Origin: an uncultured SAR86 cluster bacterium
Lineage (GTDB): Bacteria > Pseudomonadota > Gammaproteobacteria > Magnimaribacterales > D2472
DNA: 64,000 bases
Assembly (NCBI GenBank): GCA_902605165.1
Contig: CACLBJ010000003.1
Location: 62,001-126,000, forward strand
Reading direction: 5' to 3'
Shown here: piece after piece, positions 28,792-62,500 of the stretch
Position numbering within the stretch: position 1 is the first letter of the stretch
Layout of the letters: every line of letters starts with the position of its first letter
The notes under the pieces: generated by a model
Databases searched by the model: none
Seen by the model: only the letters and a program-made list of their open reading frames with translations
What the model was told of the DNA's origin: nothing
Program-made: the position numbers and the translations under genes

Positions 28792-29583
28792 CTAGTGGTA
28801 GTCTTTTTGATATTCTCTGTAGAGAAGCGCAGAAAGAAATGTAAATATAATAAAGAATATTATCGCATATACTCCCATTCTTTCCCTTTCCGCCCTACTG
28901 GGCTCACCTACATATGTTAAAAAATTTGTGAGATCATATATAAATTCATCAAACTCTTCAACATTTAACAAGCCTGATCCGTCTTGATACTTAAGGTAGC
29001 CACATTTTTCTTTAGTAATAGTATTTCCAAATTCATCTCTTTTTTCGCCGCCATTCTTAGCTAAAACAGGGACTTCCTTGCAGCCCAGTTTTTGGCTGCC
29101 TTGTATTGGCGCTAAAATATTTGGCATGTTTACGCCTGGATAAACTAGATTATTTGATCCATAGGTTGTTGATGAGTCATCATAAAAAGCTCTTAAATAG
29201 GTATAAACCCAGCTTGAAGTTCTTTTTCTTGCAACCAAGGTTAAATCAGGAGGAGCATTATCTATTTCTAATTCATGAATAGGAGCAACCATTAAATCAT
29301 ATGGTCCAGCATCCTTATCAGGGACAAGATATTCAAAGAAAATGTCTTCGGGTATTTGTAGATCATTAGCAACCCTTCCCCATCGAGAATATTTAAGCGA
29401 ATGGCAACTGTAGCAATATTTCATAAATGTACCTACGCCTCTTTGCAGCGAAGCCATGTTATTTAAATCTGGCTTAAACTGATCACAATCTCCATAGTCT
29501 TTGCAGGGACCACCTTCGGCTGAATTTATTGAAGGAACAAGTGAGAAAGATAAAATACTTATAATTAATATTGATTTAATCAC
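28792..29583 (-). CDS. petC: Cytochrome c1 of the bc1 complex
   Basis: Heme-c subunit passing electrons from the Rieske centre to soluble cytochrome c. It has an N-terminal signal peptide ending at about SINSA, a heme site CYSCH (57-61), VAPIHELEIDNAPPDLTLVA, a stretch YPGVNMPNIL with the likely axial Met, and one C-terminal membrane anchor ending in REYQKDYH. Starts with GTG overlapping the petB stop (GTGA). Length 263. Confidence 0.95.
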   Translation of the reverse strand: MIKSILIISILSFSLVPSINSAEGGPCKDYGDCDQFKPDLNNMASLQRGVGTFMKYCYSCHSLKYSRWGRVANDLQIPEDIFFEYLVPDKDAGPYDLMVAPIHELEIDNAPPDLTLVARKRTSSWVYTYLRAFYDDSSTTYGSNNLVYPGVNMPNILAPIQGSQKLGCKEVPVLAKNGGEKRDEFGNTITKEKCGYLKYQDGSGLLNVEEFDEFIYDLTNFLTYVGEPSRAERERMGVYAIIFFIIFTFLSALLYREYQKDYH

Positions 29584-30788
29584 AATCTATCTGGCACCTC
29601 ATAGGTTTTTTCAATACTTGTATAAATAGGCATTAATAGGAAAAAAGCAAAATACATTAGAGTACAAATTACGGACATGATTTTCCCTGTTTCTGTAACA
29701 GTTACAGTTCCCAAGTATCCTAAGGTAACAAAGCTAACTATAAACAAAACTATCGCTATCTTACTTAATATTCCTTTGTATCTTATTGAAGCAACATTGC
29801 TTCTATCCAACCAAGGAACGACAAATAATATTGCCACTGCTGCAGCCATGACTACAAGACCACCAAGTGGATCTGGAACTGCTCTTAACATTGTGTAAAA
29901 GGGTGAATAATACCAAACAGGTGCTATATGTTCAGGAGTTACAAGTGGGTTTGCTTCCTCAAAGTTTGCTAATTCAAGAAAATATCCACCACCCTCAGGG
30001 AAGAAAAACATTATTACGCAAAAAACCAGTCCAAAAACTCCAATTGCAGGCATTGCACTCAAGACTTTGTAAGGGAAAAAAGGAACACTGTCTAATGGGA
30101 CTCCATCATCATCAATATATTCCTCAATATCAACACCCTCTGGATTTCCAGCACCAACTTCATGCAATGCTACAAGATGAAGAAAAACTAGAGCAATCAA
30201 TATAAGGGGTAACGCAACTACATGAAGTGCAAAAAATCTTGAAATTGTTATGCCAGAAATATAATAATCACCTCTTATCCAAATCTCTAATGATTCACCA
30301 ATGTAGGGTATTGCTCCAAAAAGAGAGATAATAACTTGTGCGCCCCAATATGACATTTGACCATATGGTAGAACATAACCCAAAAATCCTTCAGCCATCA
30401 TTACTAGATAAATTGTGCATCCAAAAATCCATACTAATTCTTTAGGTTTTTTATATGAACCATACAGGAGGCCTCTGAACATATGAAGATAAACTATAGC
30501 AAAGAACATCGATGCTCCTGTAGTGTGCATGTACCTGATGATCCATCCATAATCAACATCTCTCATAATGTATTCAATTGATGCAAATGCTCCTTCTTCA
30601 GTATTTGAATATGGCATCATTAACCAAATTCCTGTGACTATTTGAAGAATAAGGACAATTGAAGCAAGAGCTCCGAAGAGGTACCAAAAGTTAACTTTTT
30701 TTGGGACAGGATGCTTAGAAAGATGCCTTTCAAATGTGTTAATTATTGGTAGTCTGTAGTTAATCCAGTTTAGAACCTTCGTTACCAT
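29580..30788 (-). CDS. petB: Cytochrome b of the bc1 complex
   Basis: Central membrane subunit with two b hemes and both quinone sites. Ligand histidines H88 and H102 (helix B) and H189 and H204 (helix D) are present; GYVLPYGQMSYWGA and the PEW-type region as PEHIAPVWYYSPFY are visible. About eight or nine membrane segments in 402 residues. The ATG shares one base with the petA stop (TAATG). Confidence 0.97.
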   Translation of the reverse strand: MVTKVLNWINYRLPIINTFERHLSKHPVPKKVNFWYLFGALASIVLILQIVTGIWLMMPYSNTEEGAFASIEYIMRDVDYGWIIRYMHTTGASMFFAIVYLHMFRGLLYGSYKKPKELVWIFGCTIYLVMMAEGFLGYVLPYGQMSYWGAQVIISLFGAIPYIGESLEIWIRGDYYISGITISRFFALHVVALPLILIALVFLHLVALHEVGAGNPEGVDIEEYIDDDGVPLDSVPFFPYKVLSAMPAIGVFGLVFCVIMFFFPEGGGYFLELANFEEANPLVTPEHIAPVWYYSPFYTMLRAVPDPLGGLVVMAAAVAILFVVPWLDRSNVASIRYKGILSKIAIVLFIVSFVTLGYLGTVTVTETGKIMSVICTLMYFAFFLLMPIYTSIEKTYEVPDRL

Positions 30789-31657
30789 TATGCTTCTTCT
30801 CCGATTGTTAAAATACTCCCTTCAAAGTAATGAGGGGGTACAGTTAAATTAGTGGGTGCAGGAACACCTTTATAAACTCTACCAACTAAATCAAACATTG
30901 AGCCATGACAAGGACAGAAAAAACCACCTTCCCAAGAGGAATCCCATGGCTTAGGTTCTACTTCTGGGTAGTATTTAGGCGAGCACCCTAAATGAGTACA
31001 AACTCCAGATAGTACAGAATATTCAGAGCTTAAAGACCTTGTGGCATTAATATTTTTGTAAGGTTCATCAATACTATCTGAATTTGGATCAGCAAGTTTT
31101 GAAATAACTGAGGCCAATCCAGAAAGTGCTGATGGTGAATGCCTTATAATCAATATTGGCTGCTTTCTCCATGAAACTTGAATCTGCTGCCCAACCATCA
31201 TTTTTGAAACGTCAACCTTGACCGCAGATCCTATTGCTTTAGCCCTTGCACTTGGATTCCAAGTTGTTACAAATGGGGTAGCTACAAAAGCTACACCAGT
31301 AGCTGCAAAGCCAGCAGTAAGTCCAATCAAAACCTTTCTTCTCCCTTGATCCGGTTCATTACTTATTTCAGATTCTTTATGTCCATTTTCTTTTGAAATA
31401 GAAATACCAAAGCTATCCAATGTGCTACGAAAATGATCACTAATATTCAAAATATCAGAATTTTCAAGTTCATTTAACGCGTCTACAAGCTCATCTCTGC
31501 TGGAAATAGCTTCATTGAGATCTTTAGTCCTTAGCGATGTCTTCACAAAGCTAGTACCAATGATACCTGCAACCTTTTCACTAACCCTTTTTTGGAAGAA
31601 ATAAATATCGTTGTTAGCTCCTCTGAGAGTTAGATATTTTTCCGTAGTTTCTGTCAT
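30788..31657 (-). CDS. petA: Rieske iron-sulfur protein with recombinase-like N-terminal extension
   Basis: The Rieske part covers residues 105-289. It has a Tat-type signal GRRKVL (105-110) and a membrane segment, then WNPSARAKA and the cluster motifs CTHLGC (220-225) and CPCHG (248-252), with ligands C220, H222, C248 and H251. Ordinary Rieske proteins begin 5-15 residues before the twin arginine. Here about 104 residues precede it, with no Met, GTG or TTG start near GRRKVL. Residues 7-65 (KYLTLRG...IYFFQKRV...VKTSLRTKDLNEA) resemble the DUF6538-type N-terminal domain of tyrosine recombinases. The frame is open throughout, so either a real fusion or a start at a rare codon. Confidence 0.9.
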   Translation of the reverse strand: MTETTEKYLTLRGANNDIYFFQKRVSEKVAGIIGTSFVKTSLRTKDLNEAISSRDELVDALNELENSDILNISDHFRSTLDSFGISISKENGHKESEISNEPDQGRRKVLIGLTAGFAATGVAFVATPFVTTWNPSARAKAIGSAVKVDVSKMMVGQQIQVSWRKQPILIIRHSPSALSGLASVISKLADPNSDSIDEPYKNINATRSLSSEYSVLSGVCTHLGCSPKYYPEVEPKPWDSSWEGGFFCPCHGSMFDLVGRVYKGVPAPTNLTVPPHYFEGSILTIGEEA

Positions 31658-31901: not shown

Positions 31902-32294
31902 TTATCTTTTTGAAAATTGAGAGCTCTTTCTTGCCTTTTTTAGACCAGGTTTTTTTCGCTCTACTTTTCTTGAATCTCTAGTAAGAAAGCCCGCTTTCTT
32001 CAGCTGTGGCCTAAGCTCTTCATCAAATAAAAGAAGTGCTCTAGAAATACCATGCCTTATTGCTCCTGCTTGGCCGAAGCTGCCACCACCCTTAACTTTT
32101 GCATCAATATCAACTTTATCGATTAAGTTACATAGCTCAAGTGGTTGTTTAACAAGCATTTGAGCTACCTCTCTTCCAAAGTAATCAGAGAGTTCTTTGT
32201 TGTTAACTCTAATAGCTCCGCCACCTTGAGATAAGTAAATTCTTGCAGAAGATGTTTTTCTTCTGCCGGTTGCGTAAAGTCTTTCACTGCTCAT
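31902..32294 (-). CDS. rpsI: 30S ribosomal protein S9
   Basis: Small-subunit protein whose C-terminal tail reaches the P-site tRNA. It has [56 protein letters not shown] and the C-terminal SSQFSKR tail. Length 130 equals E. coli. Its ATG overlaps the rplM stop (ATGA). Confidence 0.98.
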
Positions 32295-32725
32295 ATTTTA
32301 GGATTCCATTCAGTAGGATTTTGAGATTCATGAGGATGCTCAGATCCACTATAAACCTTAAGTTTTTTTATCATTAATTTTCCTAGCTTATTTTTTGGTA
32401 ACATCCCTTTAACTGCATTTTCAATAATCCTTTCAGGATTGTTCTCAAGAACTTCTGTATATGATTTTTCTTTTAGTCCGCCAGGATATAAAGAATGTTT
32501 GAAGTATTTCTTTTGTTCAGATTTATTTCCAGTAACTTTTAACTTTTTTGCATTTATCACGACTACGAAATCACCGCCATCAACATGAGGAGTAAATGTT
32601 GGTTTGTCTTTACCTCTTAGTTTATCAGCGATTTTAGTTGCGAAGCGGCCCAAAACCTTATCTGAGGCATCGAACACAACCCAGTCTCTGGTAACTTCAT
32701 TATTTTTTAAGCTAAATGTTTTCAT
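32291..32725 (-). CDS. rplM: 50S ribosomal protein L13
   Basis: Large-subunit assembly protein. Signatures: [42 protein letters not shown], and [21 protein letters not shown] with HPHESQNP. Length 144. It begins the rplM-rpsI-petABC-sspA run. Confidence 0.98.
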
Positions 32726-61828: not shown

Positions 61829-62500
61829 TTAAAATGATAAATCCTCTATGTTTATCAGATCACTCATTTGGATTTCGTCTACTTTTTTTGCATCTTTGAG
61901 CTCAAATTTACCTTGAGAAAGTCTAATAAGCTCGACTAAGTGGCCACCACATCCAAGCTTTTCACCCAGGTCTCTTGCAATAGATCTTATATAAGTGCCC
62001 TTGGAACAAGATATTTCAAAGGAAACAAAAGCATTTTCTACAACAATGTTTAATATCTTGTAAATTTTTATATTCCTAGGCTCTTTTTCTATCAGTCTTC
62101 CTTCTCTTGCATACTTATAAAGCGGTTTACCTTTATATTTTAAAGCTGAAAAAAATGGAGCTTTTTGCTTCGACTCTCCTATAAAGGTTTCAGTCATCTC
62201 AATAATCTCCTCTTCACTTACTTTAATCTTTTTCTCCTCAATAATATTTCCCTCAGAGTCATCAGTTGTGGTTTGGATTCCCAACATAATTCTTGAAAAG
62301 TATGACTTGTCGAGATTCAGAAATCTTTCTGATAACTTTGTGCCCTTATTAATTCCACAAACTAACAAGCCCTCTGCTAGAGGATCAAGCGTACCGAAAT
62401 GCCCAATTTTTTTTATATTCAGCCTTCTTTTTATCTTTTGGATAGCTTTATTTGATGATAAACCCTTATCTTTATTAATTAAAAAGATGCCTGAATTCAT
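61829..62500 (-). CDS. truB: tRNA pseudouridine(55) synthase TruB, short form
   Basis: Makes pseudouridine 55 in the T-loop of tRNA. GIFLINKDKGLSSNKAI, catalytic D39 in GHFGTLDPLAEGLL, KGTYIRSIARDLGEKLG and GGHLVELIRLSQGKF. At 223 residues it holds the catalytic domain but lacks most of the C-terminal PUA-like domain present in the 314-residue E. coli enzyme. Overlaps rbfA by ATGA. Confidence 0.94.
   Translation of the reverse strand: MNSGIFLINKDKGLSSNKAIQKIKRRLNIKKIGHFGTLDPLAEGLLVCGINKGTKLSERFLNLDKSYFSRIMLGIQTTTDDSEGNIIEEKKIKVSEEEIIEMTETFIGESKQKAPFFSALKYKGKPLYKYAREGRLIEKEPRNIKIYKILNIVVENAFVSFEISCSKGTYIRSIARDLGEKLGCGGHLVELIRLSQGKFELKDAKKVDEIQMSDLINIEDLSF

Follow-up and report, generated by a model that had tools for sequence, protein, structure and literature searches.

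The petA locus and its N-terminal extension

The window analysed here is a stretch of 64,000 nucleotides (positions 62,001 to 126,000 of contig CACLBJ010000003.1, assembly GCA_902605165.1) from an uncultured SAR86 cluster bacterium, the assembly of which comprises 996,230 bases in 16 contigs and is 82.66% complete. On the minus strand of the window lies petA, the gene for the Rieske iron-sulfur protein of the cytochrome bc1 complex (bc1), here with an N-terminal extension (30788..31657, stop codon included; 289 aa from an ATG start according to the list of open reading frames and the DNA). In the direction of transcription it is preceded by rpsI and rplM (31902..32725) and followed by petB, encoding a cytochrome b with an ordinary N-terminus (29580..30788), and petC, encoding cytochrome c1 (28792..29583), all on the same strand and all named by sequence reading (petB, in particular, not by a family match). 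The protein is encoded by a single open frame of 289 codons, with 105 residues ahead of the twin arginines at 106-107. It divides into a DUF6538 recombinase-type domain (residues 6-66, 31460..31642), a fast-evolving linker (residues 67-103, 31349..31459), a twin-arginine (Tat) signal that serves as membrane anchor (residues 104-133, 31259..31348; best 19-residue hydropathy window from residue 109) and the Rieske [2Fe-2S] part with its CTHLGC and CPCH motifs (residues 141-289, 30791..31237). The first domain is supported by the Pfam match, the selection pattern and the predicted structure.

Scanning the whole protein against Pfam placed DUF6538 (PF20172) on residues 12-63 (E 1.9e-6, 27.9 bits, cut-off 27), the Tat-signal family UCR_Fe-S_N on residues 101-136 (28 bits, cut-off 24) and the Rieske family on residues 210-272 (28.3 bits, cut-off 20.3); the first 109 residues alone reached 30.3 bits against DUF6538. 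The sequence-only reading of this locus had proposed a recombinase-like domain of just this family, and the profile search that it suggested as a check bears this out. When the whole genome was searched with PF20172, PetA was the sole match (30.9 bits). Neither a Phage_integrase or SAM-like match nor a ribbon-helix-helix family appeared among the Pfam matches of the 289-aa protein at E 1. In the PHROGs collection no match to the extension fell below E 0.027, and a sequence search of the PDB gave a single chance-level match (E 0.98).

The extension is a genuine part of PetA. With the 289-aa protein as query, the full-length fusion (residues 1-288 or 1-289) was recovered in nine of the ten genomes of the genus (g1, in SAR86 family f1), the host genome included, at 67-100% identity and without stops; the tenth genome, 79% complete, gave no PetA match. 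(Loci L032-L039 are eight of these nine members and add no independent evidence.) The first ATG is kept in all nine. Ahead of the Tat motif, in-frame GTG or TTG codons occur at residues 38, 70 and 80, and no internal ATG, GTG or TTG is conserved across the nine members, which agrees with the earlier remark that no usual start codon is available before GRRKVL. In 25 of the 27 family mates outside the genus, the match to PetA begins no earlier than residue 65 (an internal stop codon lies in three of those that start early), and the other two gave no PetA match. In 19 of the 21 family-mate frames read, an ATG stands 7-9 residues before the arginine pair; in the remaining two (L022 and L026) no ATG, GTG or TTG is found there. 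The comparison of petA starts among relatives thus came out as a conserved distal ATG within the genus and a proximal one in most of the family-mate frames read. Two apparent extended copies were rejected: L085, suggested by a tblastn match over residues 10-288, has an actual frame of 225 residues with no such domain, and G019, with an open frame of 289, has a stop eight codons ahead of its ATG and no domain.

The ratio of nonsynonymous to synonymous substitutions (dN/dS) was computed for the 36 pairs of genus members. Its median was 0.057 for the domain, 0.496 for the linker, 0.058 for the Tat/transmembrane part and 0.025 for the Rieske part (26, 32, 36 and 34 pairs with finite dS, respectively; many synonymous distances are near saturation). 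The contrast between domain and linker makes it very probable that the domain is translated and under constraint, with far less constraint on the linker. It could be argued that translation begins just before the Tat motif and that the extension reflects a wrong start codon or an assembly artefact, as the position of the ATG in the family mates would suggest and as the absence of a strong ribosome-binding site visible upstream of the petA ATG might allow. Against this stand the occurrence of the fusion in nine of ten genomes, the conserved ATG, the absence of a conserved start near the arginine pair and the prevalence of synonymous change over the domain, which together practically exclude such an artefact. 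The claim that a respiratory subunit carries this extension therefore holds.

Relatives of the domain and its predicted fold

Closest to the PetA domain, among what was found, are small proteins from sister genera in which, where read, a hydrophobic tail follows the domain. Frames of 149-210 codons with the domain were present in 40 of the 203 genomes of the order, and one further genome (G115) holds a broken copy. Counted from the first ATG, the 29 loci read encode proteins of 146-176 aa, which have linkers of varying sequence length or composition and close with a hydrophobic segment (maximum hydropathy over 19 residues of 2.17-2.81 in all six proteins computed). The PetA extension is 51% identical to one of these proteins over 65 residues and 41% identical over 59 residues to a 441-aa integrase of another SAR86 genome (L121), which itself matches both Phage_integrase (E 7.6e-10) and DUF6538 (E 1.9e-9). 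A tree of 40 domains, built on a 60-residue alignment and with PetA on a long branch, grouped the PetA copies with the small tailed copies (support 0.914) and placed the L121 integrase next (0.842). No second copy of the domain was found in the nine fusion-bearing genomes of the genus. At five loci (L115-L119) the small tailed gene lies near several further genes, by sequence reading apparently coaD and those for proteorhodopsin, a TonB-dependent receptor, a kinase-like protein and a PnuC-like transporter.

Structure prediction of the extension was another check proposed at the outset. For residues 1-70, with nine sequences as input, AlphaFold2 predicted strands at 7-11 and 18-24, a helix at 27-33, a strand at 37-43 and a long helix at 47-66 (mean predicted local distance difference test score, pLDDT, 72.5), and in the full-length model residues 89-136 fell below pLDDT 50. 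Foldseek found nothing in the PDB at E 0.001 for the predicted domain. In a structure comparison, the arm-type binding domain of the HPI integrase (3jtz) aligned over 50 residues with a root-mean-square deviation of 2.3 A and Z 3.9, and many unrelated small proteins scored higher (Z 4-5.7). Because of the empty Foldseek result and these unrelated rows up to Z 5.7, the fold says little; the model is at most compatible with an integrase arm-binding domain. A phage donor was not found either, since none of the 186 stretches of viral contigs matched by the DUF6538-type alignment was confirmed.

Domains of this sort fall into several alignments: A4 (the DUF6538 type), A2 (an arm-like type) and A8 (the type of the KOR, IscS and KorA carriers described below). 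Profile comparison by hhalign gave a good match between A4 and A8 (95.6%, E 1.1e-8, 54 columns) and a merely suggestive one between A4 and A2 (82.6%, 31 columns). Because the latter match is weak, we hold the arm-like type to be similar, not proven homologous, to the DUF6538 type, and the arm-like carriers (GltD, PetA of genus g13, PetB and an indolepyruvate-oxidoreductase-like protein, IOR) and the DUF6538 carriers may represent separate recruitments of two families of recombinase N-terminal domains. In Pfam, DUF6538 is absent at E 0.5 from the matches listed for the GltD, IOR and PetB carriers (for GltD, the best 25 of 28).

Further carriers among redox and iron-sulfur enzymes

Within bc1, extensions of this kind were met on two subunits. 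In PetA of genus g13 (SAR86 family f4) the extension is another one, some 80-90 residues long, and is matched in 14 of the 203 order genomes (11 in frames of 267-288 codons, two at contig ends). In one of these genomes (G198, L129 1492-1782, plus strand) the extended petA frame has 112 codons and ends before the Tat motif; it may be a degraded copy, a gene split in two or the product of a sequencing error. A 74-residue query from the g13 extension retrieved an integrase-like protein of 382 aa from a SAR86 genome (E 3.1e-10), and the SAR86 integrase L143 matched SAM-like phage-integrase families, one of them above cut-off, with the catalytic family unmatched. In another gammaproteobacterial order, 4 of 20 genomes encode a PetB with an N-terminal recombinase-type domain (85-99% identity). 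At the three loci read (L192 1471-3051, L253 2660-4237 and L254 2097-3677, all plus strand), the PetB fusion begins with TTG and has an ordinary PetA as its neighbour. Such domains seem to have joined bc1 three times, twice on PetA and once on PetB, and other iron-sulfur and electron-transfer enzymes several times. In two SAR86 genomes an integrase-like gene with a KSLKT-type N-domain adjoins a serine-resolvase-like gene beside an apparent end of guaA (L251 1314-3151, plus strand; L252 122-2043, minus strand; all names by sequence reading), and this pair may be a mobile cassette that occupies a fixed site.

Another carrier is GltD, the small subunit of glutamate synthase, with an arm-like N-terminal domain matched in 93 of the 107 genomes of family f1, the petA-fusion genus included. 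Sixteen of these proteins were identified by reading (L142, L145-L156, L187, L255 and L256) and the rest inferred from frame length; one carrier submitted to Pfam matched Fer4_20 and Pyr_redox_2. In addition to GltD, the genomes G112 and G111 encode an IOR-like protein, about 1240 aa long, that begins with a domain of the same sort (L248 2055-5774, plus strand; L249 3098-6823, minus strand; Pfam POR, TPP_enzyme_C and DUF6537). A KorA-type 2-oxoacid oxidoreductase (L246) matched DUF6538 with 35.6 bits and POR_N with E 3.5e-50, and this carrier occurs in 4 of the 59 genomes of its order, that of L246 included. In SAR86 family f3 the carrier is the flavoprotein of an operon for a 2-oxoacid oxidoreductase (KOR; L247), which reached 15.5 bits, below the DUF6538 cut-off, and was found in 60 of 202 order genomes with matches from query residue 1-3; in G061 and G025 the flavoprotein matched only behind the domain. 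In 12 further f3 genomes the KOR-type domain alone was matched (51-74% identity), and the frames that hold it have 474-498 codons. The five of these frames read encode the cysteine desulfurase IscS with iscU next to it (L287 3128-4549, L288 2924-4345 and L291 2792-4213, plus strand; L290 2288-3730 and L289 2439-3863, minus strand), and one was confirmed by Aminotran_5 (E 2.5e-85).

Wider searches were made with profiles, and every carrier listed was read at its N-terminus. The A2 profile gave 18 matches in 17 of 369 class-wide genomes: GltD (L187), PetB (L192), an apparent recombinase fragment and an apparent recombinase (L197 and L201), and 14 frames in which an LRH motif was seen by eye. PF20172 gave 13 matches in 274 genomes of the class, comprising integrases, short or unassigned frames, PetA of the genus, KorA (L246) and the KOR flavoprotein (L247); the match in L244, deep inside its frame, looks like chance. 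The phylum-wide profile search (17 matches in 398 genomes) showed no further redox carrier, with four frames left unassigned (L220, L224, L226 and L230); eight of the 17 frames have a recombinase motif by pattern, L222 has LRHT in its tail, and L219, L221, L227 and L233 have recombinase-like tails by eye. When ten frames were run against Pfam, seven matched Phage_integrase at E 0.001, five of them above the cut-off.

Across SAR86, five carrier sets share no genome: the small tailed protein (40 genomes), PetA of g1 (9), the KOR flavoprotein (60), IscS (12) and PetA of g13 (14). None of the 12 IscS-carrier genomes is among the 60 with the KOR carrier, and both carriers are present in each of four genera. 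This exclusion is no statistical test, because the genomes are related and partly incomplete. In the tree the IscS domains are placed among the KOR domains of the same family (with low supports), and those of the KOR flavoprotein and KorA group together. By lineage, the same complex bears the domain on another subunit: bc1 on PetA or PetB, KOR on the flavoprotein or KorA. The contrast in constraint seen in PetA recurs, with median dN/dS of the domain and of the following 30 residues at 0.090 and 1.190 in the small protein, 0.080 and 0.616 in PetA of g13, 0.108 and 0.399 in IscS (two pairs) and 0.175 and 0.347 in GltD. Taken together, the sequence data suggest that the domain stays while its carrier changes. 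All enzyme carriers identified are electron-transfer, iron-sulfur or iron-sulfur-cluster-making enzymes, and this recurrence suggests a so far unrecognised reusable module and not an accident.

A proposed docking domain on bc1, rival readings and known systems

In the reading that we favour, to which we give somewhat less than an even chance (roughly 0.46), the extension is a cytoplasmic docking domain on bc1, held there by an uncleaved Tat anchor. An integrase-type N-terminal domain, the nearest found counterpart of which is the small tailed protein of sister genera, would have been placed ahead of petA in the common ancestor of the genus. The domain, predicted to be a small three-stranded sheet with a C-terminal helix, would stay in the cytoplasm, hung by a flexible linker from the anchor, so that two copies per bc1 dimer may lie at the cytoplasmic face, next to the N-side of the complex. 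There they could act as docking units tying bc1 to a cytoplasmic partner. This partner is probably common to the carriers, because similar domains sit on other electron-transfer and iron-sulfur enzymes and on different subunits of one complex; it might belong to iron-sulfur delivery or repair, to redox-metabolic assembly or to a common scaffold. If the hydrophobic tail of the small relatives is a standard anchor, they and PetA both put the domain on the cytoplasmic side of the membrane. The sequence-only reading had held that a Tat signal 105 residues in would be hard to export. The length of the preceding part stands as described, and the difficulty is softened: according to a review (PMC7317946), the Tat signals of bacterial Rieske proteins are uncleaved and keep their twin arginines on the cytoplasmic side while transport proceeds; in actinobacterial Rieske proteins Tat serves the final helix behind two or four earlier ones. 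As such signals are uncleaved and may be internal, a cytoplasmic N-terminal domain is compatible with export. On balance, the earlier interpretation as a whole is partly supported; DNA binding by the domain in this PetA is so far not.

More tentatively, the domain may be an exchangeable address tag for electron-transfer and iron-sulfur complexes in Gammaproteobacteria, above all in SAR86, with carriers swapped around a common partner. Selection would then keep the tag on a complex or at the membrane, be the carrier the KOR flavoprotein, KorA, IscS, the tail-anchored protein, PetA, PetB, GltD or IOR. Several observations weigh against the docking reading. No partner protein was found in this analysis, and docking is an inference. 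The domain is dispensable at the genus level, as 25 of the 27 family mates carry an ordinary PetA without it, and so is the g13 version, since three of eight g13 genomes have an ordinary PetA by frame length (191-200). GltD carriers overlap with the PetA, tail-anchored and KOR carriers in family f1; DUF6538-type carriers occur in 121 of about 203 order genomes, and many genomes hold none of the five sets. The redox and iron-sulfur category was noticed after the fact, and the small tailed protein is no enzyme. Outside SAR86, L236 (320 aa), L237 (81 aa) and L250 (201 aa) match DUF6538 alone, because of which carriers that are neither redox enzymes nor integrases are possible. Lastly, the basic domains of the other carriers keep the binding of nucleic acid or phospholipid open for them.

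This last point bears on the somewhat unlikely view that the domain still binds nucleic acid as an integrase arm-binding domain does and makes PetA a nucleoid tether or a redox-linked regulator similar to PutA. Homology to integrase N-terminal domains speaks for it, as does the alignment of the predicted fold to 3jtz, the latter offset by the lack of a Foldseek match and by the better-scoring unrelated structures. A further measure is charge. Over residues 1-66 the two integrases have net charges of +7 and +11 (mean +9.0), and the means are positive in all other carrier classes measured: PetB +2.3 (n=3), KorA +4 (n=1), PetA of g13 +4.6 (n=11), IOR +5.5 (n=2), IscS +5.6 (n=5), the KOR flavoprotein +5.7 (n=3), the small proteins +5.9 (n=9) and GltD +6.0 (n=8). 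Every class except PetA of the genus thus keeps a basic domain; in the latter the charge ranges from -3 to +1 (mean -1.1, n=9), which indicates that it has lost the basic surface kept by the others. For the genus PetA we take this loss as mild evidence against DNA binding and in favour of protein docking. In addition, a membrane complex present in large amounts would be ill suited to specific regulation.

We regard it as unlikely that the domain is a passenger that does little, left by a rearrangement through which petA acquired the promoter and 5' coding part of a different gene (that of the small tailed protein or of an integrase) and retained together with the start signal. Such an origin would account for carriers that change while the 5' part stays, and for the fast-evolving linkers; because the KOR gene and the isc genes are neighbours in SAR86 f3 and f2 (L247, L293), local rearrangement could explain the IscS carriers. 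A passenger would hardly be expected to show purifying selection about as strong as that on the Tat anchor, as the g1 domain does, or to evolve under tighter constraint than the linker, as happens in every other carrier tested, and the identified enzyme carriers, all of them electron-transfer or iron-sulfur enzymes, form no obviously random set. It appears quite improbable that the extension is cut off after synthesis, to act as a separate soluble domain or simply to be removed. The linker is long, fast-evolving and, in its second half, predicted with low confidence, and the domain does exist as a protein of its own in sister genera; that protein, however, has a hydrophobic tail which a freed domain would lack, and no conserved motif was seen by eye in the linker of the nine-genome alignment.

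The fusion illustrates how a fragment of an enzyme from a mobile element can be taken into core energy metabolism. Added domains on the cytoplasmic face of bc1 are, to our knowledge, unusual; bc1 is a highly conserved respiratory machine, and the carriers are found mostly in SAR86, with its small genomes. The recurrence on redox and iron-sulfur enzymes shifts the question away from a single unusual fusion towards a module that is reused, and the repeated addition of the domain predicts a shared partner and gives a testable route to it. No paper on DUF6538 or PF20172 was found in the literature searched, outside which most subscription journals lie, and the papers it contains on SAR86 together with Rieske or cytochrome bc1 do not, judged by their listings, point to such a fusion.

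Among known systems, the PutA-like flavoenzymes are redox enzymes with an N-terminal DNA-binding domain, and PetA resembles them in that a redox protein bears at its N-terminus a domain descended from DNA-binding ones; it differs in the domain family (no ribbon-helix-helix match) and in its place on an integral respiratory complex. With the tyrosine recombinases that carry DUF6538 it shares the domain family by Pfam score, as the L121 integrase illustrates, and in contrast to them it lacks the SAM-like core-binding and catalytic parts, the domain being followed by a Tat-exported Rieske protein. PetA of bacterial bc1 has the same Tat anchor, Rieske domain, CTHLGC and CPCH motifs and adjoining petB and petC; however, the Tat signal in the SAR86 protein is not at the very N-terminus, and the 105 residues that precede the arginine pair, with a folded domain, compare with 7-9 in 19 of the 21 frames read from family mates. 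The internal Tat signal is common to it and the actinobacterial Rieske proteins (PMC7317946); there the extra part is transmembrane, whereas in SAR86 PetA it is a soluble domain.

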